A DNA stretch of 64,000 nucleotides from Loktanella sp. DSM 29012 (GTDB taxonomy: Bacteria > Pseudomonadota > Alphaproteobacteria > Rhodobacterales > Rhodobacteraceae): assembly GCF_900110705.1 (NCBI RefSeq), contig NZ_FOEJ01000002.1, positions 372,001 to 436,000 of the forward strand, given 5' to 3'. The position numbers and the translations under genes are program-made. This document shows positions 1 through 15,441 of this stretch, one piece after another (position 1 is the stretch's first letter; each line of letters begins with the position of its first letter). The notes below the pieces were generated by a model, which saw only the letters and a program-made list of their open reading frames with translations, had not been told where the DNA came from and did no database searches.

Positions 1-708
1 GGCGTCAACAGCCGCATAGGCCGCCGCCGGGGTTGCGGCAAACCCCATGAACCGAATGCGCGCGTCACCAGCGGCCAGCGCCCGCAGCGCGTCCTCTTCC
101 CCGCCCTCACCGTAGATGTGCAGTGCGATATCGGGGTCAGGGCAGCCGCGAAATGCCGAAATCAGGTGATCAAATCCCTTTTGCGGTTCCAGCCGGCCGA
201 TCGCACCAAAGACACGCACCGGCCCCACACGGTCAGGCACGGCGCGGAAATCACACAGGTCGACGCAGGACTGGATCGTCACCAGCCTGCCCGCATCACA
301 CAGCTGGCGCGATGCGAACCATTCCGCCTGCGCGTGGCTGACCGCAACAACACGGTCGAACAGCGAAAAAGCCACCCGCATCAACGTCATGAACCGGGCG
401 CGGCTGACGACATTTCGGTTCACGAAACCCTCGGTGTAGCTGTGTTCGACGTGGATCAGCGGCGTGCCAGCGTTTGCCGCGCGCAGGCCGATCAGACCGG
501 GCAGACCGCGCCAGTTCAGCGTCAGATGCGACACGATCACATCCGCATCCAGCACAGCGGACGGAACCTTGCCGCGTTCGATCTGCTGGGTGACGTGGCG
601 CGCACCCGCCTGCAGGCGGCCATCATTCACCAGAAAATCGACAACGCGCATCACACCGCCGGCGGTGCTGTCATCAACAAGGTGCAACACAACGGGTTGA
701 TCGGTCAT
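1..708 (-). CDS. Family 4 glycosyltransferase, C-terminus cut by window edge
   Basis: The reading frame runs from an ATG at 708 off the left edge of the window, so 236 residues are visible and the C-terminus is missing. It begins MTDQPVVLHLVDD and has a G-G-V-M-R loop typical of the N-terminal Rossmann fold of GT-B enzymes. Later it shows GAIGRLEPQKGFDHLI and the IYGEGGEE stretch, the usual nucleotide-sugar-binding half of GT4 transferases (Glycos_transf_1). Its ATG overlaps the stop of the upstream GT2 gene as ATGA, so the two are translationally coupled. It probably adds a sugar to the lipid-linked repeat unit of the exopolysaccharide. Donor and acceptor cannot be told. Confidence 0.85.
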   Translation of the reverse strand, partial: MTDQPVVLHLVDDSTAGGVMRVVDFLVNDGRLQAGARHVTQQIERGKVPSAVLDADVIVSHLTLNWRGLPGLIGLRAANAGTPLIHVEHSYTEGFVNRNVVSRARFMTLMRVAFSLFDRVVAVSHAQAEWFASRQLCDAGRLVTIQSCVDLCDFRAVPDRVGPVRVFGAIGRLEPQKGFDHLISAFRGCPDPDIALHIYGEGGEEDALRALAAGDARIRFMGFAATPAAAYAAVDA

Positions 709-2626: not shown

Positions 2627-3862
2627 TCACACCTTCAGGGGATGAGAGAAAAAGGCCGCGCGGATCGCAGGCAGCGAGGCCGCACAGAACAGCGTGGTGG
2701 TGGTGACGGCATAGCCCGTGGCGACGGCGGCCAGCCCGTGCGGCGCGAGGATCACCGTGTTGGCGACCACACCCATGGTCAGGGCAACGGTCACCAGCAA
2801 TTCGACCTGGGGGCGATTGTTGGCGCGCAGCCAGCCTGCCGCAGCGGTCCAAAGCGTCGTCGGGATCGCCACCAGGCAGAGGATCGCCACGATATCCGCA
2901 ATGTCGTCCCAGCCGTCACCGAACATGACAGGCACGTAATAGGGGGCCGCCAGCGCCTGCAGGATGACGACCGGTGCAATCAGACCGACACCGATCAACA
3001 TGCTGCCGCGCAGCGCAGCCGTGCGGTCGGCCGTTTGCGTCAGATGCGGAAAGAGCACGGTCGAAAAGGCGGTGGTGAACGAATTGGACAGGCTCAGACC
3101 GGCATTGAACGCCATGAAATACAGTCCCAGCGCCTGCGGTCCCATCAGGGCACCGACAATCAGCTTGTCCGATTGCAGGCGCAGCGCCTTGACCAGTTCC
3201 ACACCCAGCACCGCCCAGCCAAAACTGACAAAGGGGCGCAAGGGGGCGTAGCCTGCTTGCGGGTCACGCCGCCAGGGGTGCAGGCGCCGCACCGCCATCA
3301 GCCAGATGGGTGCGGACAGCAGACGCGGCAGCACGACGGCCAGCGCCGAAGGCCAGACCAGCACCAGCAGCACCGACATCAGGTTCGCCCCGACGATCTG
3401 TGCGCCCGCGATGCTGGCCGTCCGCTTGAGCTGGCCTGCCCGCATCGCCAGCGCCACCTGCACCAGACCGGCGGGCATGAACAGGTATTCTGCCCCCAGC
3501 AGCAGGATCAGGACCGCCAGGATCTCGCTGCCCCCACTCAGGAGGAATCCCAGCGCGATCAGCGACTGAAGCCCGAACAGGCCGCTGCACCAGACCCAGA
3601 AAATGCGATGCGCCGTCGCACAGGTTGCCTGAAGTTCCTCGTCGCGCGCTGCGATGATCCGCTGCCCGACACCGTTTTCGGTCAGGGATTTCAGAATATC
3701 GCCCGCCGCGATTGCACTGGCAGCGATGCCGATCTGGGTCAGGTCCAGGCTGCGGGCCACGGCCATCACGACAAACAACCGCGAGACCTTGGATGCGACC
3801 TCTGATGCGCCATAGGCCATCAGGTTGCCGACAAAGGCCGTGGGTTTGCGTGTCAATTGCAT
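2627..3862 (-). CDS. Polysaccharide flippase, Wzx/MATE-like oligosaccharide transporter
   Basis: A 411-residue integral membrane protein with about twelve hydrophobic segments and a polysaccharide-synthesis (MOP superfamily) N-terminus, VGNLMAYGASEVASKVSRLF. This family flips undecaprenyl-linked repeat units across the inner membrane. I place the start at the ATG at 3862 (MQLTRK), because the longer in-frame extension has no hydrophobic or conserved sequence. The ribosome-binding site is weak. It is the first gene of the minus-strand glycosyltransferase operon and is transcribed away from the export lipoprotein gene. The intergenic region between them carries one copy of the CTATCCG palindrome, about 104 bases from this start. 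Confidence 0.85.
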   Translation of the reverse strand: MQLTRKPTAFVGNLMAYGASEVASKVSRLFVVMAVARSLDLTQIGIAASAIAAGDILKSLTENGVGQRIIAARDEELQATCATAHRIFWVWCSGLFGLQSLIALGFLLSGGSEILAVLILLLGAEYLFMPAGLVQVALAMRAGQLKRTASIAGAQIVGANLMSVLLVLVWPSALAVVLPRLLSAPIWLMAVRRLHPWRRDPQAGYAPLRPFVSFGWAVLGVELVKALRLQSDKLIVGALMGPQALGLYFMAFNAGLSLSNSFTTAFSTVLFPHLTQTADRTAALRGSMLIGVGLIAPVVILQALAAPYYVPVMFGDGWDDIADIVAILCLVAIPTTLWTAAAGWLRANNRPQVELLVTVALTMGVVANTVILAPHGLAAVATGYAVTTTTLFCAASLPAIRAAFFSHPLKV

Positions 3863-3965: not shown

Positions 3966-3981
3966 CTATCCGGACGGATAG
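3966..3981. promoter_or_regulatory. Palindromic operator candidate, copy 1 of 3
   Basis: The sequence CTATCCG-GA-CGGATAG is a perfect 7-base inverted repeat around two bases. It sits in the divergent promoter region, about 80 bases before the GTG of the export lipoprotein gene and about 104 bases before the flippase ATG. Near-identical copies lie at 8419-8434 and 11595-11610. The 16-base size and symmetry suit a dimeric LuxR/NarL-type regulator, such as the one encoded at 10976-11590; that link is inference. Confidence 0.6.
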
Positions 3982-4060
3982 GCGCGCTGCCTTATGCGCA
4001 ATGGACCCTGCAAGGCGAACGGGGTTAACGTTGCTGCAACCACCAGCATCCGAGGTTTCC

Positions 4061-5287
4061 GTGCGCCTGTCCAAAACCACACGATACGCGGCCTCTGTTT
4101 TCGTGCTGGCCACCGCCTGCACGTCATATGACCGTCCTGACAACCTGGAACCGGTCGCCAGCGGCGACGCCTATCAGGCGCAATATCGTGAACCGACCGT
4201 GACCCGCGCCAATGCGCAGTTCCTGCGATCGGCCGAGCTGAACGCGCAGAAATGCCTGCCCTACGGGGCGGCTGCCGGATCGGATGGCCGCATCGGCAAG
4301 GGCAGCGCCATTGCCGCGGCCGCTTTGCAGGGCGAACGCCTGACACGCAATGACCTGCTGGACGTGCGGATCGCAGATGACGAAACCCTGACCGGCGACT
4401 ACGTGATTTCGCGCGACGGCACGCTCAAGCTGCCGTTCCTCGATCCTGTCCGCGCACAGGGCCGCAGCAGCAATCAGATCGAGGCCGACATCGCCCGCGA
4501 ACTGGTAGCCGAAGGGTTCTACGATACCGCCCCGCGCGTTTCGGTCCGGGCAGCTGATTTCGCGTCCGTCACCGTCGGCGTGTCGGGTGCCGTATTTGAA
4601 CCGCGCGCGGTCGAAATCGGCGGCGTGCCCGGCAATGGCCTCGACACCCGCAGACAAGACGCGATGGGGGCCTCGACCGAGGCGCGCAACCTGTCTGCCG
4701 CCTTGCGGGCGGCGGGCGGTGTCCGGCCCGATGCCGATATTTCGGCCGTTGAGGTCCTACGCGACGGCACTGTCTATAAACTGGACATGCGCGGCGTGTT
4801 CGAAGGTCAGAACGCCGTCGACGTGATGCTGTTAACCGGTGACGAAGTGCGCGTCCCCAGCCGCCAGTGTTTCCAGGAGGACCTGATGCGGCCCAGCCCG
4901 ATCAGCCCACCGGGCGTCAGCCTGTATCTGTCGAACCTCACGCAACCCGCCTCCGACAACGCGTCCTCTGCCATCGGTCAGACCGTGCGCGAGGTGCCGT
5001 GGGGGACGCGATACCTTCAGGCCGTGATCGACGCCAACTGCGTCGGTGGACCCCGCAGCACCAGCGCGGACAGGTCGTCGGTCCTGTTCACACGCAATCC
5101 CGTGACGGATGTATCGACCGTGATCGAACGCGATATCGAGGATCTGGTGCGCCGCGCAGACCGCGATGATTACGACCCCTATCTGCTGCCGGGTGACGCA
5201 CTGGCCTGCTATGACAGCACGATCACCAACGTGACCGAGATCGGCCGTGTCTTTGGCGTTCTGGGGGCCGTTTCACTACTGCGCTAG
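4061..5287 (+). CDS. Wza-like polysaccharide export lipoprotein
   Basis: A 408-residue outer-membrane polysaccharide export protein. I choose the GTG at 4061 because it follows a CGAGG ribosome-binding site and gives a short signal peptide ending VLATAC, with Cys as the probable lipidated residue. The upstream in-frame ATG at 3956 would add 35 residues without a signal sequence. The Poly_export domain is visible at LDVRIADDETLTGDYVISRD through the segment ending GFYDTAPRVSV. SLBB-like sequence follows (VTVGVSGAVFEPRAVEIGG). The C-terminal part probably forms the outer-membrane helix ring. Its stop codon shares CTAG with the convergent sensor kinase gene. A palindromic operator candidate lies about 80 bases upstream. 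Confidence 0.85.
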   Translation: MRLSKTTRYAASVFVLATACTSYDRPDNLEPVASGDAYQAQYREPTVTRANAQFLRSAELNAQKCLPYGAAAGSDGRIGKGSAIAAAALQGERLTRNDLLDVRIADDETLTGDYVISRDGTLKLPFLDPVRAQGRSSNQIEADIARELVAEGFYDTAPRVSVRAADFASVTVGVSGAVFEPRAVEIGGVPGNGLDTRRQDAMGASTEARNLSAALRAAGGVRPDADISAVEVLRDGTVYKLDMRGVFEGQNAVDVMLLTGDEVRVPSRQCFQEDLMRPSPISPPGVSLYLSNLTQPASDNASSAIGQTVREVPWGTRYLQAVIDANCVGGPRSTSADRSSVLFTRNPVTDVSTVIERDIEDLVRRADRDDYDPYLLPGDALACYDSTITNVTEIGRVFGVLGAVSLLR

Positions 5288-7806
5288 GCCAGTGCAGCGA
5301 TGGTGTCGCGGTGCAGGTCGGGCAAGGCCGCGATCAATCCGGGCAAGGCATCGGTATCGCCTGATTTGGCCGCCGTCTCGATCTGCTTGAGGGTTTCGCG
5401 CAGGGCAACCGCCCCGAAAACGGCCGCACTGCCCGCGCCCTTGTGCGCAGCGGCGGCCATTGCGGCGGGGTCGCCTGCCCCGTCCGTCAATTCGGCAATC
5501 AGCGCGCCCATGTCGGCGTCGAACCGGCTGCGCATCATGTCATAGGTATCGACCCCCAGCACATCGCGCGTTTCGCGATTGTGCTGGCTGTCGATCACGT
5601 CAAAGGCACGGGGCGCGGTTTGCGCGCGATCTTCTTTGGCGAGCGCTGCGTGCAGCGCGGCCTGCGTGAGTGGTTTCGTCAGAATTCCGTCCATCCCGTC
5701 CTCCAGAAAGGCCGCCCGTTCGTCCTGCAGGACGTTCGCGGTCAGTGCGAGGATCCGTGTGTTGGCCGAAGCCCCCTGGCCTGCGCGGATCAGCCGGGTG
5801 GCGGTGCGCCCGTCCATCACGGGCATGCTGATATCCATCAGGATCAGGTCATAGGCATGTGACTGCGCCTTGATCATTCCTTGCTGCCCGTCATGCGCCT
5901 CGGTCACACGGTGGCCTGCGGCCTGCAACATGTCGCGCACGACAATGCGGTTGATCTCGTTGTCCTCAACGACAAGAATATCCAGCGGTGCGATTTTGCC
6001 GGAGGACCGGACGGTTTCGACCGCATCGGCATGACGCGTCACACGTTTGATCGGGATATCGATCCAGAAGGTGCAACCCTGCCCCGGCTCACTATTTACG
6101 CCGATCTGCCCGTCCAGCGCCGTCACGAACCGTTTCGCAATCGCAAGACCAAGCCCCGTTCCGCCCACATCGCGGTCATAAGCCGTGTTGCCCGTGACAA
6201 AGTCATCGAACACCCGATCCTTGAGGTCGGCTGCGAGACCGGGGCCGGTGTCCGCGATCTCGACGCGCAACCGGTCGCCCTGGCCGTCTGCGCGGACGCT
6301 GACGGTCAGCGACACCTTGCCCTGCCGGGTGAATTTCACGGCATTCCCCACGAGGTTCATCAGGACATGCTGCAACCTGTCGGGATCGGATTCGACCCAG
6401 ACCTGCGGTGGTCCATCCCAGCCCCAGTCCAGCGCGGTCCCGTTCTGTGCGGCCATGCTGCTTTGACTGTCGATGATATCCTGCACCAGATCGCCCAAGT
6501 TCATCGCGACCCGCTGGATGTTCAGCTTGCCCGCGTCATAACGCGTGATGTCCAGCACGTCGGACACATGGGTCAACAGAAGGCGGCCCGAGGTTTCCAT
6601 ATGGCGCAGATATCGCGCCTGATCCGGTGTCAGCGTGGTGTTGTGCAACAGGTCCATGTTGCCCAGAATTCCGTTCAGTGGCGTCCGGATTTCGTGGCTC
6701 ATGGTCGCAAGGAATTCGGTCTTCAGCTTTTCCCCGGCCAATGCCCGGTCACGGGCTGCGACCAACTCGGCCTCGGCTGCAACCCGCGCTGAAATATCCC
6801 GCAGGAACGCGATGTAGATTTCGCCGGTATCCGTGGTGGCTGACTGGATGGCCAGTTCGACGGGAAACAGTTCGCCATTGGCGCGCTGCGCCTCGAGTTT
6901 GAGCCGGCCCTTGCCGACCACGTGTTTTTCGCCCGTCGTCCGCATGCGTTCCATCCCGGCGTCATGAGCACCGCGCAGATGTGGCGGTACGATGACCTGC
7001 CCGATGTCACGGCCGATCACATCGTGACGGCTATGACCGAATATCACTTCGGCGGCGGGGCTGAATTCGATGATCCGGCCACGCGCATCACTGACGATCA
7101 CACCGTCCAATGACGTGCCGATCACGGTGTTCAGACGCACGGCGGTCTGTTTCTGCTGTGTCTCTCGGCGACTGACGATTGCAATCAGGCGATAAAGGTA
7201 AAAAATCGCAAGCCCCAGGGTCCCGATCAGTAGCGACAGCGCAAAAGCCAGCTGCGACATGGTGCGCGCCACCGCTTCGCGCCGAACATCAGATTCGCGC
7301 GCAAAGATATCAAGCCCTGCGGTCGCCAGATCCCGCACCGATGGCCGGATGCCATCGGCCAATGCCGCCAGCTCTGGCAGCAGCAAACGCAGATCCGCAT
7401 CATCGGCGTCGATGATCGGCACGCTGGCGGTCAGAAACAGCTGAATGTCGCGCAGGGTGTCGGAAAATCCGACATCGGCGCGCGTTGTTTCAAACACACT
7501 TGCCTGCGAAATCGTGTCCATCCGGCTGTAGAACACGTCAAAATTGCGCCGCAGCGCAGACAGGTTGACCGGGTCAGCATCCAGATGCCGTCGGTATTCC
7601 AGGAATTCGACCTCGGTCTGGGCCAGCGACCATTGCACGTTGTCGGAATTGGCCGAGCCCAAAAGCCTGATTTCGCGCGAGACATTGAACGCGAGAAACA
7701 AGATGGCTCCGATCACCAAAAGGCCGGCCAGCACCGCAAAGGTGCGACCGGCTGCGGCGCGTTGGTCTGCCGTATCAGGCAAAGCGAGCCTCCCTTGGTC
7801 GGGCAT
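5284..7806 (-). CDS. Hybrid sensor histidine kinase with PAS, receiver and Hpt domains
   Basis: An 840-residue membrane phosphorelay kinase. A transmembrane helix near residues 20-45 and a second near 180-205 bracket a periplasmic region. A PAS domain follows, then the dimerization domain with the phospho-accepting His371 in SHEIRTPLNG. The HATPase follows with its N box (NLVGNAVKFT) and G boxes (DTGPGLA, GGTGLGLAI). The receiver domain has its Asp at 658 (LILMDISMPVMDG) and the Hpt domain has His788 (AHKGAGSA). All relay steps up to Hpt are therefore in one chain, and the Hpt should hand phosphate to a separate regulator, plausibly the LuxR-type one at 10976. It lies 18 bases after its likely periplasmic partner gene. 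Confidence 0.93.
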   Translation of the reverse strand: MPDQGRLALPDTADQRAAAGRTFAVLAGLLVIGAILFLAFNVSREIRLLGSANSDNVQWSLAQTEVEFLEYRRHLDADPVNLSALRRNFDVFYSRMDTISQASVFETTRADVGFSDTLRDIQLFLTASVPIIDADDADLRLLLPELAALADGIRPSVRDLATAGLDIFARESDVRREAVARTMSQLAFALSLLIGTLGLAIFYLYRLIAIVSRRETQQKQTAVRLNTVIGTSLDGVIVSDARGRIIEFSPAAEVIFGHSRHDVIGRDIGQVIVPPHLRGAHDAGMERMRTTGEKHVVGKGRLKLEAQRANGELFPVELAIQSATTDTGEIYIAFLRDISARVAAEAELVAARDRALAGEKLKTEFLATMSHEIRTPLNGILGNMDLLHNTTLTPDQARYLRHMETSGRLLLTHVSDVLDITRYDAGKLNIQRVAMNLGDLVQDIIDSQSSMAAQNGTALDWGWDGPPQVWVESDPDRLQHVLMNLVGNAVKFTRQGKVSLTVSVRADGQGDRLRVEIADTGPGLAADLKDRVFDDFVTGNTAYDRDVGGTGLGLAIAKRFVTALDGQIGVNSEPGQGCTFWIDIPIKRVTRHADAVETVRSSGKIAPLDILVVEDNEINRIVVRDMLQAAGHRVTEAHDGQQGMIKAQSHAYDLILMDISMPVMDGRTATRLIRAGQGASANTRILALTANVLQDERAAFLEDGMDGILTKPLTQAALHAALAKEDRAQTAPRAFDVIDSQHNRETRDVLGVDTYDMMRSRFDADMGALIAELTDGAGDPAAMAAAAHKGAGSAAVFGAVALRETLKQIETAAKSGDTDALPGLIAALPDLHRDTIAALA

Positions 7807-7824
7807 GTTGGGGGGAATGCCGGA

Positions 7825-8340
7825 TCAGTTGACGGCCTCGAGACGGTCAAGTTGCCATATGCTGCGTGAATAAATGACCTCGGTGCGGTAGGCCGGATCG
7901 CTGTCATACGGATACACGACCCACAACGGCCCCTTGTCCCGCACGCGCATTTCCGCATCGTCCATCAGATAGGCAACCATGCCACCACCCTCGACCGCAT
8001 CGCTGACCGGGATTTCAACCGCATAGTCATTGATCGCCGTGGCGATGATCGTGCCCTCGGTCACGCCCAGGGCCTCCATCAAGGTCGCCAGTGAAACGCC
8101 CTGAAAACTGTGCACGCCTTCGGTCCAGATCGTGCTGGTTTCAAAGGTGGTCGCGTCGAGCGCCATCAGCGCATCGCGATCCAGCTGAAGCTGATCGTCC
8201 ACGTTCGTCATCTGGATATTGCCCGTGATCGTCAGCAGGACATCGCCCTGCGGTGCAGGAATATCCTGTGCCAGCAGCGGCGTGGCACTCAGGATCAGGA
8301 TCGCCGATGCACCGGCGATTGTGCGCAGAAATTTGATCAT
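7825..8340 (-). CDS. Periplasmic protein with molybdopterin-oxidoreductase-like fold, partner of the sensor kinase
   Basis: A 171-residue exported protein with signal peptide MIKFLRTIAGASAILILSAT and cleavage near LLAQ. The mature part resembles the oxidoreductase molybdopterin-binding (SUOX-type) fold, with SFQGVSLATLMEALGV, an isolated GGGMVAYLMDD strand and WVVYPYD. It is too short for a full sulfite-oxidase-type enzyme, and the Cys that would ligate molybdenum is absent, so a sensing role is more likely than catalysis. It precedes the hybrid kinase gene by 18 bases in one operon, and the operator palindrome lies about 79 bases upstream. An AGGAT ribosome-binding site supports the ATG. The link to ligand sensing is inference from context. 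Confidence 0.7.
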   Translation of the reverse strand: MIKFLRTIAGASAILILSATPLLAQDIPAPQGDVLLTITGNIQMTNVDDQLQLDRDALMALDATTFETSTIWTEGVHSFQGVSLATLMEALGVTEGTIIATAINDYAVEIPVSDAVEGGGMVAYLMDDAEMRVRDKGPLWVVYPYDSDPAYRTEVIYSRSIWQLDRLEAVN

Positions 8341-8418
8341 GGTCAGTCATCCTCATTCATTACGGCAAATCTATGCCCAAGGGCGTCCAGTCCGATAGTC
8401 GGGCATCGGGATAATCCC

Positions 8419-8434
8419 CTATCCGAACGGATAG
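8419..8434. promoter_or_regulatory. Palindromic operator candidate, copy 2 of 3
   Basis: CTATCCG-AA-CGGATAG is a perfect inverted repeat, extended by one further C/G pair to 8-base arms (8418-8435). It lies just after the galU stop codon and about 79 bases upstream of the ATG of the periplasmic protein and sensor kinase operon. Distance and sequence match the copies at 3966 and 11595. Confidence 0.6.
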
Positions 8435-8437
8435 GTT

Positions 8438-9325
8438 TCAGGCGGCCATCTGCTGCGCACCCGTACGCTGATTGACAAAATCCGCAAACGGACCACCCAG
8501 GTCGGACCGCGCCATGGCATAGGCGGCCGTTGCCTGAACATAGCCCTGCACCGATCCGCAATCGAACCGTTCACCGGCGAATCGGTAGCCTGTCACCCCG
8601 ATCGCGTCGACATCGGCATTGATCGCATCGGTCAGCTGCAATTCACCGCCTGCCCCCGGCGTCAGCGCCGCCAACCGGTCGAAAATCGCGGATTCCAGAA
8701 TGTAGCGTCCGACAACCGCCTGCGTCGAAGGTGCCGCGTCCGGTGCCGGTTTTTCCACCATGCCCCTGGCATGGGCGATACGACCCTGCTGCTGGGCCAC
8801 ATCCAGCACGCCATAGGACGCCGTATCCGCGCGGGGCACGTCCAGCGTGGCGACCATATGCCCACCGACACGGGCGTGCGCCTGCACCATCTGTTTCAAG
8901 GCACCGGGCGCGCCCATGATGACGTCATCGGGCAAGAGGACGGCAAAGGATTCCTTGCCGATCAGATGCCGGGCCTGCCGCACCGCATGCCCCAACCCCA
9001 AGGGCTGCGCCTGCCGCAGGATCGTCAATGCACCCTCTGGCATATGGCTGCACGCCAGCGCATCCAGTGCAGCAGTCTTGCCCTTTTCGCGCAGGCGATG
9101 TTCCAGCAGGGCGGCGGTGTCGAAATAATCCTCCAGCGCCCCCTTGCCGGCGGCCGAGACAAAGATGAATTCTTCGATCCCGGCCTCGCGGGCCTCGTCG
9201 ACGGCGTATTGGATCAGGGGACGATCCACGAGGGTCAGCATTTCCTTGGGAATGGATTTCGTGGCGGGCAGGAAACGTGTACCCATGCCTGCGACGGGAA
9301 AGACGGCTTTGCGGATATGTGTCAT
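8438..9325 (-). CDS. galU: UTP-glucose-1-phosphate uridylyltransferase
   Basis: This 295-residue enzyme makes UDP-glucose from UTP and glucose-1-phosphate in the cytoplasm. The nucleotide-binding start KAVFPVAGMGTRFLPATKSI and the following PKEML are diagnostic of GalU, as are LLPDDV and MVEKP further along. The ATG at 9325 follows an AGGAG ribosome-binding site; the longer frame upstream is shadow. It is 23 bases downstream of the fused WecG/phosphoglycosyl transferase gene, so UDP-glucose supply is co-transcribed with the initiating enzyme of polysaccharide synthesis. UDP-glucose may feed the glycosyltransferases in this locus and probably also other envelope pathways. Confidence 0.96.
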   Translation of the reverse strand: MTHIRKAVFPVAGMGTRFLPATKSIPKEMLTLVDRPLIQYAVDEAREAGIEEFIFVSAAGKGALEDYFDTAALLEHRLREKGKTAALDALACSHMPEGALTILRQAQPLGLGHAVRQARHLIGKESFAVLLPDDVIMGAPGALKQMVQAHARVGGHMVATLDVPRADTASYGVLDVAQQQGRIAHARGMVEKPAPDAAPSTQAVVGRYILESAIFDRLAALTPGAGGELQLTDAINADVDAIGVTGYRFAGERFDCGSVQGYVQATAAYAMARSDLGGPFADFVNQRTGAQQMAA

Positions 9326-9348
9326 GTCGGTTCTCCTAGTTTCAGTTG

Positions 9349-10728
9349 TCAATGGGCGCCGCGGCCGGACAGGACGGCGCGGAAGGTCATGGCGATCAGG
9401 ATCAGGTCCAGGATCAGGGTGCGCGATGCGGCATAGGCCAGATCCATGTCGATCATCCGGTCGAACCCGATATCGGCACGGCCGGACACCTGCCACAGGC
9501 CGGTGATCCCGGGTTTTACCGCCAGCCGCCCGTAGGCACGTGCGGGATAGGCCGCCACCTCGGATGGCAGGGCAGGACGCGGACCGACGATCGACATTTC
9601 GCCGCGCAGGACGTTCAGGATCTGCGGCAGTTCGTCGATGGAAAACCGCCGGATGAACCGGCCCACGCGGGTGACGCGCGGATCGTTGCGGGATTTGAAA
9701 CACACACCCTCGCGGTCAGAGGTCGCAAGCAGCGCTGCCCGGCGGGCTTCGGCGTCCTGCCCCATCGACCGAAACTTCAGCATCTGGAACGGGACGCCGT
9801 CCCGGCCAACCCGCGTCTGGCGGAAAAAGACCGGACCACGGCTGTCCATCTTGATGGCGATGGCGGTCAGCGTGCACAACGGTGCCAGTGCGACCAGTGC
9901 GGATGCAGACACCGTGATGTCCAGCGTGCGGCGCAACACCGCTGCGCGTGGTGCGTGACGCGCGGCCCGGATGGCGCTGCGGGCCAGAAATGTTGCGTTG
10001 CCGAGCAGATAGCGTTTCGCCAGACGCCGTGGTTCCTGCGCCAGCCGCCAGATCCATTCGGACCGGGCACGGCGCAGCCAGACCGGCGCGCGCGATACGT
10101 TGCCCGCGTAGAAATCCAGTGCGGCCCCCACGCCCAGTGTCAGCGCGGCGTTCAGCAGATGGGCATTGCGGTGCAACCAAATTTCCTGTGCAGGCACACC
10201 CAGCGCGACCAGCACGATATCGGCACCGGTGGCGTTGATATCGGCGATGACCGCGGCATCGTCCTGCGCACCGGCGAAACCGTCACGTGTTCCTGTGATC
10301 CGCAGATGTGGAATGGCACGGATCAGGTTGCGTGCCGCCAGATCGGCTGTTCCGGGCGTGCCGCCGAACAAGAATACACCGCGACCTTCGCGGGCGGCCT
10401 GGACCAGCAGCGCCGGGATCAGGTCGGTGCCATTCAGGTTTGCGGTCAACCGCTGCCCTGTCATCCGGGCGGCCAGCGATACGCCAAGTCCGTCGGGCAA
10501 CAGCATGTCGGCGCAGCGCAGCGCAGCCGCATACTGGCGGTCGCTCTCCATCACGTTAGCACAGTGGGCGTTGACAAAGAACGCACGGCGGCGTCCCGGG
10601 GCCAGCAATTGTGCCACGGCTTGCGGTGTCGTCATGTTGGCCAGCGTCAGGTCCAGCGTCGGCAGATAAGTCGTCGGACGCAGCATGACGGGCAAGGCGG
10701 CGCGAAAATCGTCGGCAGTATGTTTCAT
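9349..10728 (-). CDS. Fused WecG/TagA-type glycosyltransferase and monotopic phosphoglycosyl transferase
   Basis: A 459-residue two-domain protein. Residues about 25-200 match the WecG/TagA/CpsF (GT26) family, with FFVNAHCANV, LLPDGLGV, NLNGTDLIP and VALGVPAQEIW. Residues about 260-459 are a bacterial sugar transferase of the WbaP/ExoY type: a hydrophobic re-entrant helix, then MLKFRSM, the catalytic DELPQ, VLRGEMSIVGPRP and KPGITGLWQVSGR. The C-terminal half would load sugar-1-phosphate onto undecaprenyl phosphate, and the N-terminal half would add the second sugar. Fusing the two would channel the lipid intermediate. An AGGA ribosome-binding site supports the ATG. It is the first gene of an operon with galU. 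Confidence 0.93.
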   Translation of the reverse strand: MKHTADDFRAALPVMLRPTTYLPTLDLTLANMTTPQAVAQLLAPGRRRAFFVNAHCANVMESDRQYAAALRCADMLLPDGLGVSLAARMTGQRLTANLNGTDLIPALLVQAAREGRGVFLFGGTPGTADLAARNLIRAIPHLRITGTRDGFAGAQDDAAVIADINATGADIVLVALGVPAQEIWLHRNAHLLNAALTLGVGAALDFYAGNVSRAPVWLRRARSEWIWRLAQEPRRLAKRYLLGNATFLARSAIRAARHAPRAAVLRRTLDITVSASALVALAPLCTLTAIAIKMDSRGPVFFRQTRVGRDGVPFQMLKFRSMGQDAEARRAALLATSDREGVCFKSRNDPRVTRVGRFIRRFSIDELPQILNVLRGEMSIVGPRPALPSEVAAYPARAYGRLAVKPGITGLWQVSGRADIGFDRMIDMDLAYAASRTLILDLILIAMTFRAVLSGRGAH

Positions 10729-10882
10729 CGGGGTCGTCCTGTGTTCAAATGATCTGGGTCATAGATCCTTGAAAACAGGCACTTCTCGCAACGGAGCGAG
10801 CGGACAGGCGGACGCCCCATGCGATCCTGCGACATCTACAGCGGGTCATCGTCGCCCCCAATTGAATGGTAAACATATCCTA

Positions 10883-10904
10883 ATTGGTTAACGCCCTAAC
10901 CAAT
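10883..10904. promoter_or_regulatory. Inverted repeat in the divergent region upstream of the response regulator
   Basis: ATTGGTTA and TAACCAAT form a perfect 8-base inverted repeat separated by ACGCCC. It lies between the divergent fused-transferase gene (start 10728) and the LuxR-type regulator gene (start 10976). It differs from the CTATCCG palindrome and could be an operator for another regulator or a site for autoregulation. Confidence 0.4.
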
Positions 10905-10923
10905 ATTGTGGGTCATGGCGCCT

Positions 10924-10951
10924 TTGATTGGTCACAGTGATTGTCTAGGCT
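10924..10951 (+). promoter_or_regulatory. Possible sigma-70 promoter of the response regulator gene
   Basis: TTGATT at 10924-10929 and TAGGCT at 10946-10951 are separated by 16 bases and lie 25 bases before the ATG of the LuxR-type regulator. The match is modest, and alphaproteobacterial promoters are poorly conserved, so this is only a candidate. Confidence 0.3.
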
Positions 10952-10975
10952 GCATTAACGAAACGAGGACACGCT

Positions 10976-11590
10976 ATGAGAGTATTGATCGCCGATGATC
11001 ACGACCTGCTGCGGGATACGCTTGTCATGTTCTTGCAGGCCCAGGGCGGGATCGACACGGAATCCGTCGCGGATTTCGACGCGGCCTGTGCGCGGATCAC
11101 TGCGGACGCGCCTTATGACCTCATCCTGCTGGACTACAACATGCCCGGCATGAACGGGTTGGACGGTTTGAAAAAGGCGATTGCAATGGGGGACGGCCAG
11201 CGTGTCGCGCTGATGTCCGGAGAGGCGACCCGCCAGATCGCAGAGGATGCGCTGGATTCGGGGGCCGCCGGTTTCGTGCCGAAATCCCTGCCTGCCAAAT
11301 CGCTGGTCAACGCTGTGAAATTCATGGCGATGGGCGAACAATACGCCCCCATCGATTTCATGACGGCGGTCGAGGAAACGCAATGCAACCCGCTGGCAGA
11401 GAAGCTGACGGCGCGGGAATTGCAGGTTCTCAAGGGGTTGACCGAAGGCAAATCCAACAAGGAAATCGCCCGCGACCTCGACATTACCGAACCGACCGTA
11501 AAGCTGCATGTCAAAACGCTATACCGCAAGGTCGGGGCCGCAAACCGCACGCAGGCTGCGATGATCGCCCGCGAGGCGGGGCTCTTCTAA
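10976..11590 (+). CDS. LuxR/NarL-family response regulator
   Basis: A 204-residue two-domain regulator. The receiver domain (residues 1-115) keeps the acidic pair D7-D8, the phospho-acceptor D53 in LLDYNMPG and the conserved K103. The C-terminal HTH (about 140-204) shows LTARELQVLKGLTEGKSNKE and the recognition helix region EPTVKLHVKTLYRKVGA, which is the GerE/LuxR class. No kinase lies beside it, but the hybrid kinase at 5284-7806 in the same locus ends in an Hpt domain that could phosphorylate it. It sits among exopolysaccharide genes that carry a shared palindrome upstream, so it is the best local candidate to bind it. A GAGGA ribosome-binding site precedes the ATG. Confidence 0.93.
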   Translation: MRVLIADDHDLLRDTLVMFLQAQGGIDTESVADFDAACARITADAPYDLILLDYNMPGMNGLDGLKKAIAMGDGQRVALMSGEATRQIAEDALDSGAAGFVPKSLPAKSLVNAVKFMAMGEQYAPIDFMTAVEETQCNPLAEKLTARELQVLKGLTEGKSNKEIARDLDITEPTVKLHVKTLYRKVGAANRTQAAMIAREAGLF

Positions 11591-11594
11591 GGAC

Positions 11595-11610
11595 CTATCC
11601 TGACGGATAG
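11595..11610. promoter_or_regulatory. Palindromic operator candidate, copy 3 of 3
   Basis: CTATCCT-GA-CGGATAG matches the copies at 3966 and 8419 with one arm mismatch. It begins four bases after the response regulator stop codon and about 90 bases before the ATG of the Wzz-like gene, the same spacing range as the other two copies. Confidence 0.55.
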
Positions 11611-11699: not shown

Positions 11700-13133
11700 A
11701 TGTTGATTGCCCCCACCCTGCCCCCTGCTGCCACACCGCGCCGGTCGCGTATCCGCCGTGCCCTGCTGGGTGGCGGGTTGGCCGATCTGGGCCGCCTGCC
11801 CCGCTATGCGGCATTCGCGATCCTGGGGGCCACACTGATCTGGGCACCGATCACGGGGTATCTGCGGACAGCACCGCTGACCTACAAATCCAGCACGTCG
11901 CTGATCCTGCCCGGTTCGGGGGCATCCGCATCGCTGAACCTTAACGGCATCGGTCAGGCCAGCTCTTATGCAAGTTCGGCATTCGCCAGCAACGCGGTCA
12001 GCCCGACCGAAACCTACAAACGCCTGCTGAACGCCGACCGCATCCTCGCCGCGGCCGCCAGGTCACTGGACATCAGCATGCCGGATCTGGGCCGCCCGCG
12101 CGTGTCACTGGTCGACCAGACCAGCCTGATCCATTTCGAAATGACAGGCGGCAGCCCCGTCGAGGCCAAGGCGCGCGGCGAGGCGATCCTGGATGCGTTT
12201 TTCACCGAATTGGACGCCCTGCGCGCCGACGAGGTTGCAACCCGCGAGGACAGCGGATTGCAGGCCATCGCCGACTATCGCGATTCGGTCGCGCAGACCC
12301 GGGCCGCCATCAGCACCCTCCAGGACAGCAGCGGATTGTTGTCGGTCGAACAATACGACGTGCTGATGGACCGGCACCTTGCCTTGGAAACCGAACTGCG
12401 CGTCCAGACGGCAACCCTCGCCGAAAAAGAGGCCGCGACAGCCAGCCTTTCGTCACAACTGGGCGTCAGTGCCGAGGCAGCGGCCCGGACGCTCAAGCTC
12501 TTTGCCGACGGTGCCTATCTGTCCTTGTTGGACGAGGCTGCGCGCTTTGCTGCCCAGTTGGCAGAGGCGCAATCGCAATTCGGACCGCGCCATCCGCAGG
12601 TCGTCACGGCCCGACAGGGCCACGATACTGCACGCAGCACGGCACAGGCCCTCGCGCGACAGGTCACGGGTCTGGATGATGCAACACTGGCTGGCCTCGA
12701 CCTCGCACCGCAGGGCGTGCGGGCCGACCTGCTGGCGCAACTGGTCCAGATGCAGGCAGACAGCCGCGGCGCGCGCCAACAGCTCGAGGCGCTGCGTGCG
12801 CAATACGCCGCAGGTCAGCGCGATCTGGCCGCCAAGGCCGCTGCGGCCGCACAACTACAGGATCTCGAACGTGATTTTTCGGTGGCAGAGGCTGTCTTTG
12901 CCTCGGCCATCGCGCGGGCGCAATCCAGCAAATCGGACGTCTACGCGTCCTATCCGCTGGTGCAGGTGCTGGAAAACCCGTCGCTTGCGGACAGACCTTC
13001 ATCCCCCAACCGCAAGCTGGCCTATGCCGCAGGCGGGGCCGCGACGATGATGATGTTGTTCGGCCTGTTGATGGGCTGGGTCCGTCTGGCACTGATCAGC
13101 CGCCTGCTGACCAAACCGGAGCGTCCCGCATGA
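11700..13133 (+). CDS. Wzz-like polysaccharide co-polymerase without a kinase domain
   Basis: A 477-residue inner-membrane protein. A first transmembrane helix lies near residues 40-60 (YAAFAILGATLIWAPITGYL). A long periplasmic region with coiled-coil-rich Ala/Gln/Leu sequence (about 170-420) follows, then a second helix near the C-terminus (AAGGAATMMMLFGLLMGWV). The SPNRKLAYA stretch just before the last helix corresponds to the conserved P-x-x-P segment of chain-length regulators. Only about 20 residues follow the last helix, so there is no Wzc-type tyrosine kinase. The ATG at 11700 follows AAGGAGA; a TTG two codons earlier is less likely. It is coupled to the polymerase gene by an ATGA overlap and probably sets chain length. 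Confidence 0.85.
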   Translation: MLIAPTLPPAATPRRSRIRRALLGGGLADLGRLPRYAAFAILGATLIWAPITGYLRTAPLTYKSSTSLILPGSGASASLNLNGIGQASSYASSAFASNAVSPTETYKRLLNADRILAAAARSLDISMPDLGRPRVSLVDQTSLIHFEMTGGSPVEAKARGEAILDAFFTELDALRADEVATREDSGLQAIADYRDSVAQTRAAISTLQDSSGLLSVEQYDVLMDRHLALETELRVQTATLAEKEAATASLSSQLGVSAEAAARTLKLFADGAYLSLLDEAARFAAQLAEAQSQFGPRHPQVVTARQGHDTARSTAQALARQVTGLDDATLAGLDLAPQGVRADLLAQLVQMQADSRGARQQLEALRAQYAAGQRDLAAKAAAAAQLQDLERDFSVAEAVFASAIARAQSSKSDVYASYPLVQVLENPSLADRPSSPNRKLAYAAGGAATMMMLFGLLMGWVRLALISRLLTKPERPA

Positions 13134-14395
13134 CCGACCTGAACCCGGTCGAGCGGTTCATCTACAAGACGCTGGTTTACACTTGGCCGCTTTATTTCAT
13201 CGGCGCGCTTTATGTGGTGGGACCCGTGCTGGCCTGGATGCTGGGTGCCTTGGCTGTTCTGGTCCTGTTTCTGGGCGATGCGATCCGGGATGACATGCGT
13301 GCCGCCGGACCGATCCCGCCGGTGGTCTGGATGTGGATCATCGGCATGGCCGTGATGCTGGTCGCCCTCTGGGTCGGTCACCTGAACTGGGACATGGGCC
13401 TGAAGCAGACGATCAAATCCAGCATCGGCTGGGCCAAGGGCTGGGCCTTGATGGCGCTGTTTCCGCTGGCGGGTGCAGTCCTGCCGATCCGGCGCAGCGT
13501 GCTGATCCGGGGGCAATGCGTCATTGGGCTGGGCACATTGATCCTGGCCCCCATCCTGCTGGCCGCACCACATATCGGATTGCCGGAGAAAATATTGACC
13601 TCGCCGCTCAAGGCCGTCGGTGGACCGGGGCCAGAGTATTTTTCGGTCTATTTCTTTACCTGGGACCCGTCCAGCTGGACCCCACGCTGGCAATTCTACG
13701 CCCCCTGGTCACCCTTTGCCGCGATGCTGGGCCTGATGATGGTCCTGTTCGCGATGGAAGAGGACAACACACGCTGGCGGCGCATCGGGATCGCCGCGGG
13801 CATGCTGATGATCCTCGCGTCGAAATCGCGCATGGGGTTGGTCGGGCTGGTGGCCTGCACGATCGGACCCCGCATGATGCCGTTGCTGTTGCGCGGCTGG
13901 GCCTGGCAGGTGGTGGCCGGTCTGACGGCCTCCATGGCGATGCTGGGGGCCACGATGGCCGCTGCCGCCCTCGATGCGGTCGCCACGTTCAAGGGGGCCC
14001 GCGCCGACAGCACGCGGGTGCGCGAAACCCTGCAACGGATCGCTTGGGAGCGTTGGAAAAACGACGCTGTCTGGTTCGGTCACGGGCGCGTGGCCCCTGG
14101 ATCGCACGCGGTGGAATACATGCCGATCGGCAGTCACCACACTTGGTATGGGCTGTTGTTCGTCAAGGGCGTGGTCGGTCTGCTGGCGCTGCTGGTGCCC
14201 TTTGTCTGGCAGTTGGCCATCGCGATGAAGGACGCCACGCTGGGGCCGCGCGGACGGCTGCCAATGGGCTTCATGATGACGCTGACGCTGCTGTCCTTTG
14301 GTGAAAACGTCGAAATCGAGGCCTATCTGCTGTGGCCGGGCCTGATGCTCTTGGGCATCCACGCGCGCGAGGTGCGCAGCGCCCCTGCCTTGTGA
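13130..14395 (+). CDS. Wzy-like polysaccharide polymerase / O-antigen ligase-type membrane protein
   Basis: A 421-residue protein with roughly ten transmembrane segments and a large soluble loop around residues 150-195 and 280-330. The loop before the last helices holds GHGRVAPGSHAVEYM and GSHHTWYGLLFVKGVVGL, the pattern of an O-antigen ligase/polymerase (Wzy_C) domain with H-x-x-W/Y residues. The protein would join flipped repeat units in the periplasm. Its ATG overlaps the Wzz-like stop codon, so co-polymerase and polymerase are translated together, as expected for partners. It could instead be a ligase that attaches polymer to another acceptor; with no lipopolysaccharide genes nearby, polymerase is the better guess. 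Confidence 0.75.
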   Translation: MTDLNPVERFIYKTLVYTWPLYFIGALYVVGPVLAWMLGALAVLVLFLGDAIRDDMRAAGPIPPVVWMWIIGMAVMLVALWVGHLNWDMGLKQTIKSSIGWAKGWALMALFPLAGAVLPIRRSVLIRGQCVIGLGTLILAPILLAAPHIGLPEKILTSPLKAVGGPGPEYFSVYFFTWDPSSWTPRWQFYAPWSPFAAMLGLMMVLFAMEEDNTRWRRIGIAAGMLMILASKSRMGLVGLVACTIGPRMMPLLLRGWAWQVVAGLTASMAMLGATMAAAALDAVATFKGARADSTRVRETLQRIAWERWKNDAVWFGHGRVAPGSHAVEYMPIGSHHTWYGLLFVKGVVGLLALLVPFVWQLAIAMKDATLGPRGRLPMGFMMTLTLLSFGENVEIEAYLLWPGLMLLGIHAREVRSAPAL

Positions 14396-14463: not shown

Positions 14464-15441
14464 ATGACCGATCTCAACCAGCCGCTGGGCGGCAATACCA
14501 TGCCCCGTTTCGGTGGCCCCGCGACCATGATGCGGCTGCCCGCACAGGATAGCGCCGCCGGGCTGGATGCCTGTTTCATTGGCGTACCGCTGGATATCGG
14601 CACGTCAAACCGGCCCGGCACGCGGCTGGGTCCGCGCCAGATCCGCGACGAAAGCAGGATGCTGCGTCCCTACAACATGGCGACCGGGGCCGCGCCCTTT
14701 GACAGCTTGCAGGTGGCGGACCTTGGCGACGTGCCGATCAACACATTCGATCTGAAAAAATCGGTCGGGATCATTGCCGATCACTACCGCGCGGTCCTGG
14801 CCCACGACGTGATCCCGCTGACACTGGGCGGGGATCATACGATCACCTGGCCCATCCTGCGGGCGATTGCCGAAAAATACGGCCCCGTTGCCCTGATCCA
14901 TGTCGATGCCCACGCCGACACCAACGCGGATATGTTTGGCGAAACGGTGGCCCACGGCTGCCCGTTCCGCCGCGCCCACGAGGAGGGTCTGCTGATCGAC
15001 GACAAGGTGTTCCAGATCGGGTTGCGCGGCACCGGCTATGCCCCCGCCGATTTCGACTGGGGCCGCGCGCGTGGCTGGTCCGTCATCCCGGCCGAGGCGT
15101 GCTGGCACAGATCACTGACCCCGTTGATGGCGCAAATCCGCGACCGGATCGGCGATGCCCCGGTCTATCTGACCTTTGATATCGACAGTCTGGACCCCGC
15201 ATTTGCCCCCGGCACGGGCACGGCGGAAATCGGTGGTCTGACAATCCAGCAAGGCATGGAAATCGTGCGCGGCTGCGCTGGTCTCAATCTGGTCGGCTGC
15301 GATCTGGTCGAGGTCTCGCCGCCCTATGACATGGCCGGCAACACCGCCGTGACGGGCGCTGGCCTGCTGTTTGAAATGTTGTGCGCCCTGCCCGGCGTTT
15401 CACGGACCGGTCAGGGCGCCACATCCGATATCGCGTTCTAG
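14464..15441 (+). CDS. Arginase-family ureohydrolase (agmatinase or guanidino-acid hydrolase)
   Basis: A 325-residue metal-dependent hydrolase that releases urea from a guanidino substrate. The dimetal ligands are all present: His in LTLGGDHTITW, the DAHAD cluster in HVDAHADTNADMFGE and FDIDSLDPAFAPGTGT. The segment HGCPFRRAHEEGLL after the second motif is usual in proteins annotated as agmatinase, guanidinobutyrase or guanidinopropionase. The ATG at 14464 gives a normal N-terminus; upstream in-frame codons belong to the polymerase gene. Its TAG stop shares CTAG with the convergent ABC permease gene. The transporter next to it suggests the substrate may be imported, but specificity cannot be decided. 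Confidence 0.88.
   Translation: MTDLNQPLGGNTMPRFGGPATMMRLPAQDSAAGLDACFIGVPLDIGTSNRPGTRLGPRQIRDESRMLRPYNMATGAAPFDSLQVADLGDVPINTFDLKKSVGIIADHYRAVLAHDVIPLTLGGDHTITWPILRAIAEKYGPVALIHVDAHADTNADMFGETVAHGCPFRRAHEEGLLIDDKVFQIGLRGTGYAPADFDWGRARGWSVIPAEACWHRSLTPLMAQIRDRIGDAPVYLTFDIDSLDPAFAPGTGTAEIGGLTIQQGMEIVRGCAGLNLVGCDLVEVSPPYDMAGNTAVTGAGLLFEMLCALPGVSRTGQGATSDIAF

Follow-up and report, generated by a model that had tools for sequence, protein, structure and literature searches.

NarL of E. coli, whose partners are NarX and NarQ, has been described as a response regulator combining a REC with a GerE domain. It prefers 7-2-7 sites, in which two inverted heptamers are separated by a 2-bp gap, giving 16 bp in total (PMC4549865). 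PruR-DTB systems comprise a PruR-like periplasmic protein and, encoded after it, a kinase containing W-x7-E, PAS, HisKA, HATPase and REC, and PruR-linked kinases are widespread (PMC13259868). Section 8 and accompanying passages of this 2026 review name neither a partner regulator nor target genes for DTB, and the term 'response regulator' has 0 occurrences in the review. The literature searched, which did not extend to Greenwich et al. 2024, yielded no description of a PruR-DTB partner regulator, operator or target set. Likewise, no title among the matches listed in a text search for CTATCCG/CGGATAG concerns such a regulator. The PruR-DcpA system of Agrobacterium tumefaciens, whose homologous pterin receptor is available as structure 7kos, is tied to an attachment polysaccharide.

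The window analyzed here, a stretch of 64,000 nucleotides from Loktanella sp. DSM 29012, joins a sensor pair, a regulator and an operator with its targets, all of them proposed, in one place. From sequence comparisons, it is highly probable that CTATCC-N4-GGATAG is the operator of a NarL-type response regulator (RR), which would be part of a PruR-DTB phosphorelay and activate the transcription of exopolysaccharide (EPS) genes and of its own sensor operon.

The sensor operon is located on the minus strand. Its first gene (7825..8340) encodes a PruR-like periplasmic pterin-receptor homologue of 171 aa, which matches the crystallized pterin binding protein PruR (7kos) with an E value of 5.8e-36 and possesses an N-terminus that is hydrophobic by eye. 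In PruR, a tryptophan replaces the Mo-ligating cysteine. This family tryptophan is kept in the Loktanella protein, where SRSIW aligns with SRSAW of 7kos, and the protein contains no cysteine at all. The PruR proteins of relatives revealed a strict SRSxW-like pattern in 29 of 44 cases and ND[Y/F] in 42 of 44. A second PruR was not detected in the same genome at E 1e-5. Following a gap of 18 nt, the second gene (5284..7806, minus strand) encodes a DTB-type hybrid histidine kinase containing W-x7-E, PAS, HisKA, HATPase, REC and Hpt, as judged by Pfam and the translation, and the two genes form a two-gene operon as in PruR-DTB systems. The periplasmic W-x7-E reads WSLAQTEVE and lies near the N-terminus; 39 of the 45 relatives scored share the pattern. 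What the first-pass annotation had listed as a periplasmic protein/kinase operon is, by homology, a PruR-DTB pair of the pterin-receptor family, an identity that was absent from the annotation and is added here; the binding of a pterin is likewise predicted from homology.

The proposed binder is encoded at 10976..11590 on the plus strand. It is a NarL/FixJ-type protein with REC (PF00072, E 6.7e-20) and GerE (PF00196, E 1.8e-21) domains, and its nearest solved structure is NarL (1a04, E 1e-22). The residues D7, D8, D53, S81 and K103, which we take to be those of a phosphorylatable receiver (DD, D, S/T, K), are invariant in nine aligned sequences. With a score of 110 bits, the RR remains below the NCBIfam NarL equivalog cut-off of 250 bits; it is not NarL itself and may work in a similar way. 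Among the best 80 loci of a longer list, the closest named relative's RR is that of Loktanella sp. LH_M9 (86% identical).

Three palindromes were found at 3966..3981 (site 1, CTATCCGGACGGATAG), 8419..8434 (site 2) and 11595..11610 (site 3), none of them assigned to a strand, and thus at the positions given in the first-pass annotation. All three contain the exact core CTATCC-N4-GGATAG. The single mismatch that had been reported for site 3 is real when the 14 bases of the 7-2-7 form, CTATCCG-NN-CGGATAG, are considered, and disappears when the site is compared with the core. In the sites of relatives, the arms are fixed and the 4-nt centre is variable, with a preference for G at position 7 (21 of 27 pruR sites). 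Site 1 is situated between the divergent genes of a Wzx-like flippase (2627..3862, minus strand; Polysacc_synt_3 in Pfam) and a Wza-like polysaccharide export lipoprotein (4061..5287, plus strand; Poly_export and SLBB_2 in Pfam), both proposed targets, its edge being 79 nt away from the GTG start codon at 4061. Site 2 lies upstream of pruR-DTB, 78 nt from the pruR start at 8340, with a half-site-like TATCC at +6..10 on the minus strand; the adjacent gene on its other side codes for a GalU-like nucleotidyltransferase (8438..9325, minus strand; NTP_transferase in Pfam, start MTHIRK). Site 3 is positioned between the RR stop codon and the gene of a Wzz-like chain-length determinant (11700..13133, plus strand), whose ATG at 11700 is 89 nt away. 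Site 2 is at most 5 nt away from the galU stop codon, and site 3 at most 5 nt from that of the regulator gene. The product of wzz, a further proposed target, gave a weak match to TIGR03007 (E 1e-8, below the cut-off) and no Pfam match. The Wzy/ligase-like membrane protein encoded downstream of it (13130..14395, plus strand) was named by position and has no Pfam or NCBIfam match. The RR gene itself is not preceded by a site in this locus, as the best match upstream of it contains five mismatches.

Allowing up to one mismatch, the core occurs three times in the window compared to 0.05 expected copies, and 0 of 100 shuffles reached three. These are the three sites described above, in agreement with the first-pass annotation, which had noticed no further copy in the window. 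By itself, the 14-base form at three mismatches is not significant, since four copies were found versus 2.06 expected and 21 of 100 shuffles reached four. The genome-wide search that the annotation had proposed gave the same picture: in 3.42 Mb (99.8% complete), exact cores are restricted to the three in the window, 0.14 exact copies being expected per genome from base composition. Two cores with one mismatch exist outside the window (C20:448001 and C10:395358), and a control pattern also gave two. The first of them, CCATCCGAACGGATAG (L016 8002-8017), is flanked by an XRE gene on one side and a quinone oxidoreductase gene on the other. It probably arose by chance, because a similar site in another genome (G307) adjoins neither an XRE nor a quinone oxidoreductase gene.

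To assess conservation, 80 named loci around RR relatives, the best 80 of a longer list, were analyzed. At most 350 nt upstream of each gene were scored and the motif was counted at up to one mismatch; gene matches starting after query residue 90 or having less than 150 nt upstream were dropped, and 59 other palindromes obtained by permuting the arm served as a control. In loci with an RR of at least 60% identity, pruR was preceded by the motif in 27 of 30 cases, coming from 21 named genera, and wzz in 16 of 21, and the divergent wza/flippase region (one shared region) contained it in 17 of 20. The sites are thus kept at the matching promoters of related loci, as was demanded of them by the first-pass annotation. 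The sugar transferase gene (11/20) and the regulator gene (17/44) are also preceded by the motif in part of these loci. By contrast, the comparison genes gave 0/21 (wzy), 1/32 (DTB) and 2/14 (galU), and the permuted palindromes averaged 0-0.08 per class, never exceeding 1 except in the case of DTB (4). In the Loktanella locus, the motif is absent upstream of the sugar transferase gene (9349..10728, minus strand), which according to Pfam combines a WecG-type glycosyltransferase with a bacterial sugar transferase in a single reading frame, though it exists there in the 11 relatives mentioned. Exceptions to the rule were pruR in L101, L106 and L109, the wza/flippase region in L112, L117 and L127, and wzz in five of the 21 loci; the genome of L101 (G310) has an exact site (L222 3949) at its second regulator-pruR-DTB unit. 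When the RR is 45-60% identical, seven of 14 pruR genes are preceded by the motif. In a search for covariation of site and regulator, these 14 loci did not reveal an alternative perfect palindrome upstream of pruR. Below 45% identity, the motif was found upstream of the RR in 0 of 14 loci.

The position of the sites relative to the promoters was studied by aligning the promoters on the motif and predicting the -10 positions with a simple weight matrix. At pruR and wza, the mean -10-like score peaks 44-46 and 45-46 nt after the end of the site, respectively; at wzz and the flippase gene, the peak is at 65-66 nt, which is two helical turns further. Thirteen of 17 wzz promoters (64-67 nt) and 12 of 18 flippase promoters (64-66 nt) have their best -10 hexamer within the peak, compared to eight of 18 for wza (45-47 nt) and seven of 28 for pruR (44-46 nt). 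Due to these low numbers of best hexamers within the peak, the nearer spacing class (wza, pruR) is less certain. In addition, the pruR promoters of relatives contain a further TATCC at +6 to +10, approximately 20 nt after the first arm, with a C at +10 in 89%. In those of the flippase gene, a CTCTCC-like sequence occupies +26 to +31, which is approximately 41 nt beyond the first arm. The arrangement resembles a series of weaker sites extending toward the -35 region, as would be expected of such an activator, and the predicted spacing between site and promoter suggests activation.

To what extent the motif follows the regulator can be seen in 120 genomes of the family. The exact core was detected in 14 of 19 genomes with an RR of at least 60% identity (the values in this group being 63% or more), in 10 of 32 with an intermediate RR (40-59%) and in three of 69 with neither, a control pattern giving five of 69 in the latter group (Fisher p 1e-9 for 14/19 vs 3/69). 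Five of the 19 genomes with a close RR lack the exact core. In the wider family, it was found in 71 of 295 genomes compared to seven for the control. There are several cases in which the components of the system have been separated. All 18 EPS-linked pruR loci possess the motif, and so do eight of 11 pruR loci in whose retrieved DNA, which includes some short contigs, all five EPS genes looked for are missing; one of the 30 pruR loci belongs to neither class. In 12 genomes taken from the EPS-less loci, wzz was not found by a search run without a positive control. A genome of the same genus (G003) carries a 16-kb EPS stretch devoid of the regulator and PruR-DTB, which nevertheless has an exact motif at wzz and one with a single mismatch in the wza/flippase intergenic region. 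Its regulator-pruR-DTB unit, which has an exact site, is on a different contig, and every regulator match in this genome is on contigs other than the EPS one.

The third type of separation concerns the sensor. In L124, L126 and L127, genes for a FIST protein, a hybrid kinase and the RR follow in a row (about 4-10.6 kb), and no PruR-DTB exists in the locus. The RRs of these operons are 61-65% identical, and the motif (one mismatch) occurs in all three, 77, 68 and 69 nt upstream of the FIST gene, respectively. Two FIST loci with an RR below 50% do not contain the motif. The genomes of L126 and L127 revealed no PruR at E 1e-5; in the genome of L124, PruR is present elsewhere than in the FIST locus. 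In L127, an exact site is additionally located between the RR gene and wzz. The FIST protein of this locus scored 23 bits against NCBIfam NosP (cut-off 450), while FIST domains themselves were detected. These operons suggest an exchange of the sensor. Since the RR is the partner common to all cases of dissociation (EPS-less pruR loci, G003 and FIST operons), the evidence points to the RR as the putative binder and strengthens the candidate put forward in the first-pass annotation, the LuxR-type regulator. As regards the names of the sequences, L127 is titled Oceanobacillus sp. HTM 045 and L149 Exiguobacterium profundum SSD5; both loci are Rhodobacteraceae-like and the names look wrong.

It is conceivable that the palindrome is recognized by a different conserved DNA-binding protein encoded elsewhere and that the RR is a mere neighbor. 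The exact cores in the three genomes without a close or intermediate RR and the many family sites away from any RR would agree with such a binder. However, these three of 69 are at control level, the core otherwise tracks the RR, and the motif stays with the RR where EPS genes or PruR-DTB are absent and is missing upstream of RRs below 45% identity, which makes another binder quite unlikely. The direction of the regulation is a separate matter. NarL is an activator at some promoters and a repressor at others (PMC4549865), and the RR might also repress via its sites or act differently depending on the promoter. Against this, the sites precede the apparent -35/-10 region and do so at two phased distances, which is where activators are usually found. 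Repression or a promoter-dependent action appears rather unlikely.

Two further readings do not assume an operator at all. Due to the proximity of sites 2 and 3 to the stop codons, the palindromes could be regarded as hairpins in the RNA or as terminators at which transcription of the preceding genes ends. Site 1, though, is flanked by two divergent start codons, no T-run follows the sites by eye, the 4-nt centre varies at fixed arms, the spacing to the downstream gene is kept and EPS-less loci retain the site at pruR. The reading was therefore rejected as extremely improbable. That the sites arose by chance or are copies of a mobile repeat might be argued from the sequence itself, which offers three 16-bp copies only. 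Their number in comparison with the 0.05 copies expected in the window and their conservation at the promoters of relatives, foremost that of pruR, led to the rejection of this explanation too, whose likelihood we regard as negligible.

We return to the RR as the binder and activator. The PruR-like protein and the DTB hybrid kinase (HisKA-REC-Hpt) would respond to a signal in the periplasm, which homology suggests to be a reduced pterin, and the phosphate would be passed from the kinase to Asp53 of the RR. A dimer of the phosphorylated RR would bind to the palindrome and probably also to the weaker half-sites approximately 20 bp further in, on the same face of the DNA as RNA polymerase, and activate wza, the flippase gene, wzz and pruR-DTB. 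Feedback is thus expected through the sensor operon and not through the RR's own upstream region. The sites, their conservation, the preferred spacing to -10-like elements and the co-occurrence with the regulator were observed; we infer binding, phosphotransfer, the ligand and activation rather than repression.

The annotation had proposed a local regulon with exclusive sites. This is true for the Loktanella genome, which has no exact core elsewhere, and does not apply to the family, where some sites precede other genes. The 17 genomes that combine an RR of at least 60% identity with one or more exact sites contain 36 such sites, and 29 of these are in RR/pruR/EPS loci. Out of 30 loci from the family scan (3 kb, one match per genome), nine sites are beside RR/pruR/EPS genes, three have a kinase-like match alone and 18 have none. 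Some of the sites precede plausible matrix genes. In another genome of the same genus (G004, L174 7808), the exact motif is found upstream of a gene whose product contains bacterial Ig domains and has a BapA-like start, the latter match falling just short of the cut-off. In G146 (L216 4996 and 10822), it is situated before an alginate-export-like gene and before a pair coding for HlyD and a glycosyltransferase; the contig also harbors an AlgX-like gene. Beside the FIST-kinase-RR operon of L126, an exact site precedes a mannose-phosphate isomerase/nucleotidyltransferase gene and a site with one mismatch a GDP-mannose-dehydrogenase-like gene (sites at 14756 and 16403). Other family sites are near genes without an evident link, e.g., those of ribonucleotide reductase and the alkaline phosphatase PhoX, and were not counted as targets. 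In Octadecabacter, a receiver-SpoIIE phosphatase protein (L091 10893-12170) is encoded after the regulator, and a site with one mismatch at 10618 lies before it.

Whether these findings can be combined into one RR and one operator forming a family-wide biofilm-matrix regulon of the Rhodobacteraceae seems to us an evenly balanced question. Such a regulon would have an exchangeable sensor (mostly PruR-DTB, otherwise a FIST protein with its kinase), targets varying by lineage (this EPS locus, alginate-like genes, a BapA-like adhesin) and sites in steps of approximately 20 bp toward the -35 region. If it exists, PruR-DTB systems gain a transcriptional output. The circuit proposed for the Loktanella locus, if right, would directly connect a pterin-type sensor with the genes for slime and biofilms in a common family of bacteria. 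As the operator is a short DNA word, the circuit is testable.

Compared to the described systems, the proposed circuit shares individual parts with each of them. NosP-NahK also pairs a FIST protein with a hybrid kinase; in L124, L126 and L127, such a pair is likewise encoded with the RR and could conceivably sense NO or haem. The Loktanella sensor pair has the gene order and kinase domains of PruR-DTB systems and differs in that its kinase additionally contains an Hpt domain. NarL is similar to the RR in its domain architecture and in the 7-2-7 geometry of its sites. The half-sites are different, an engineered narG site being TACCCCT-AA-AGGGGTA (PMC4549865) and the half-site here CTATCCG. The partners also diverge, since PruR-DTB apparently takes the place of NarX/NarQ, as do the targets, which are predicted to be polysaccharide genes. 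With PruR-DcpA, the circuit has the pterin-receptor family and the link to a polysaccharide in common. There, however, the output is c-di-GMP turnover by DcpA, whereas the circuit proposed here is a phosphorelay that ends in a transcription factor.
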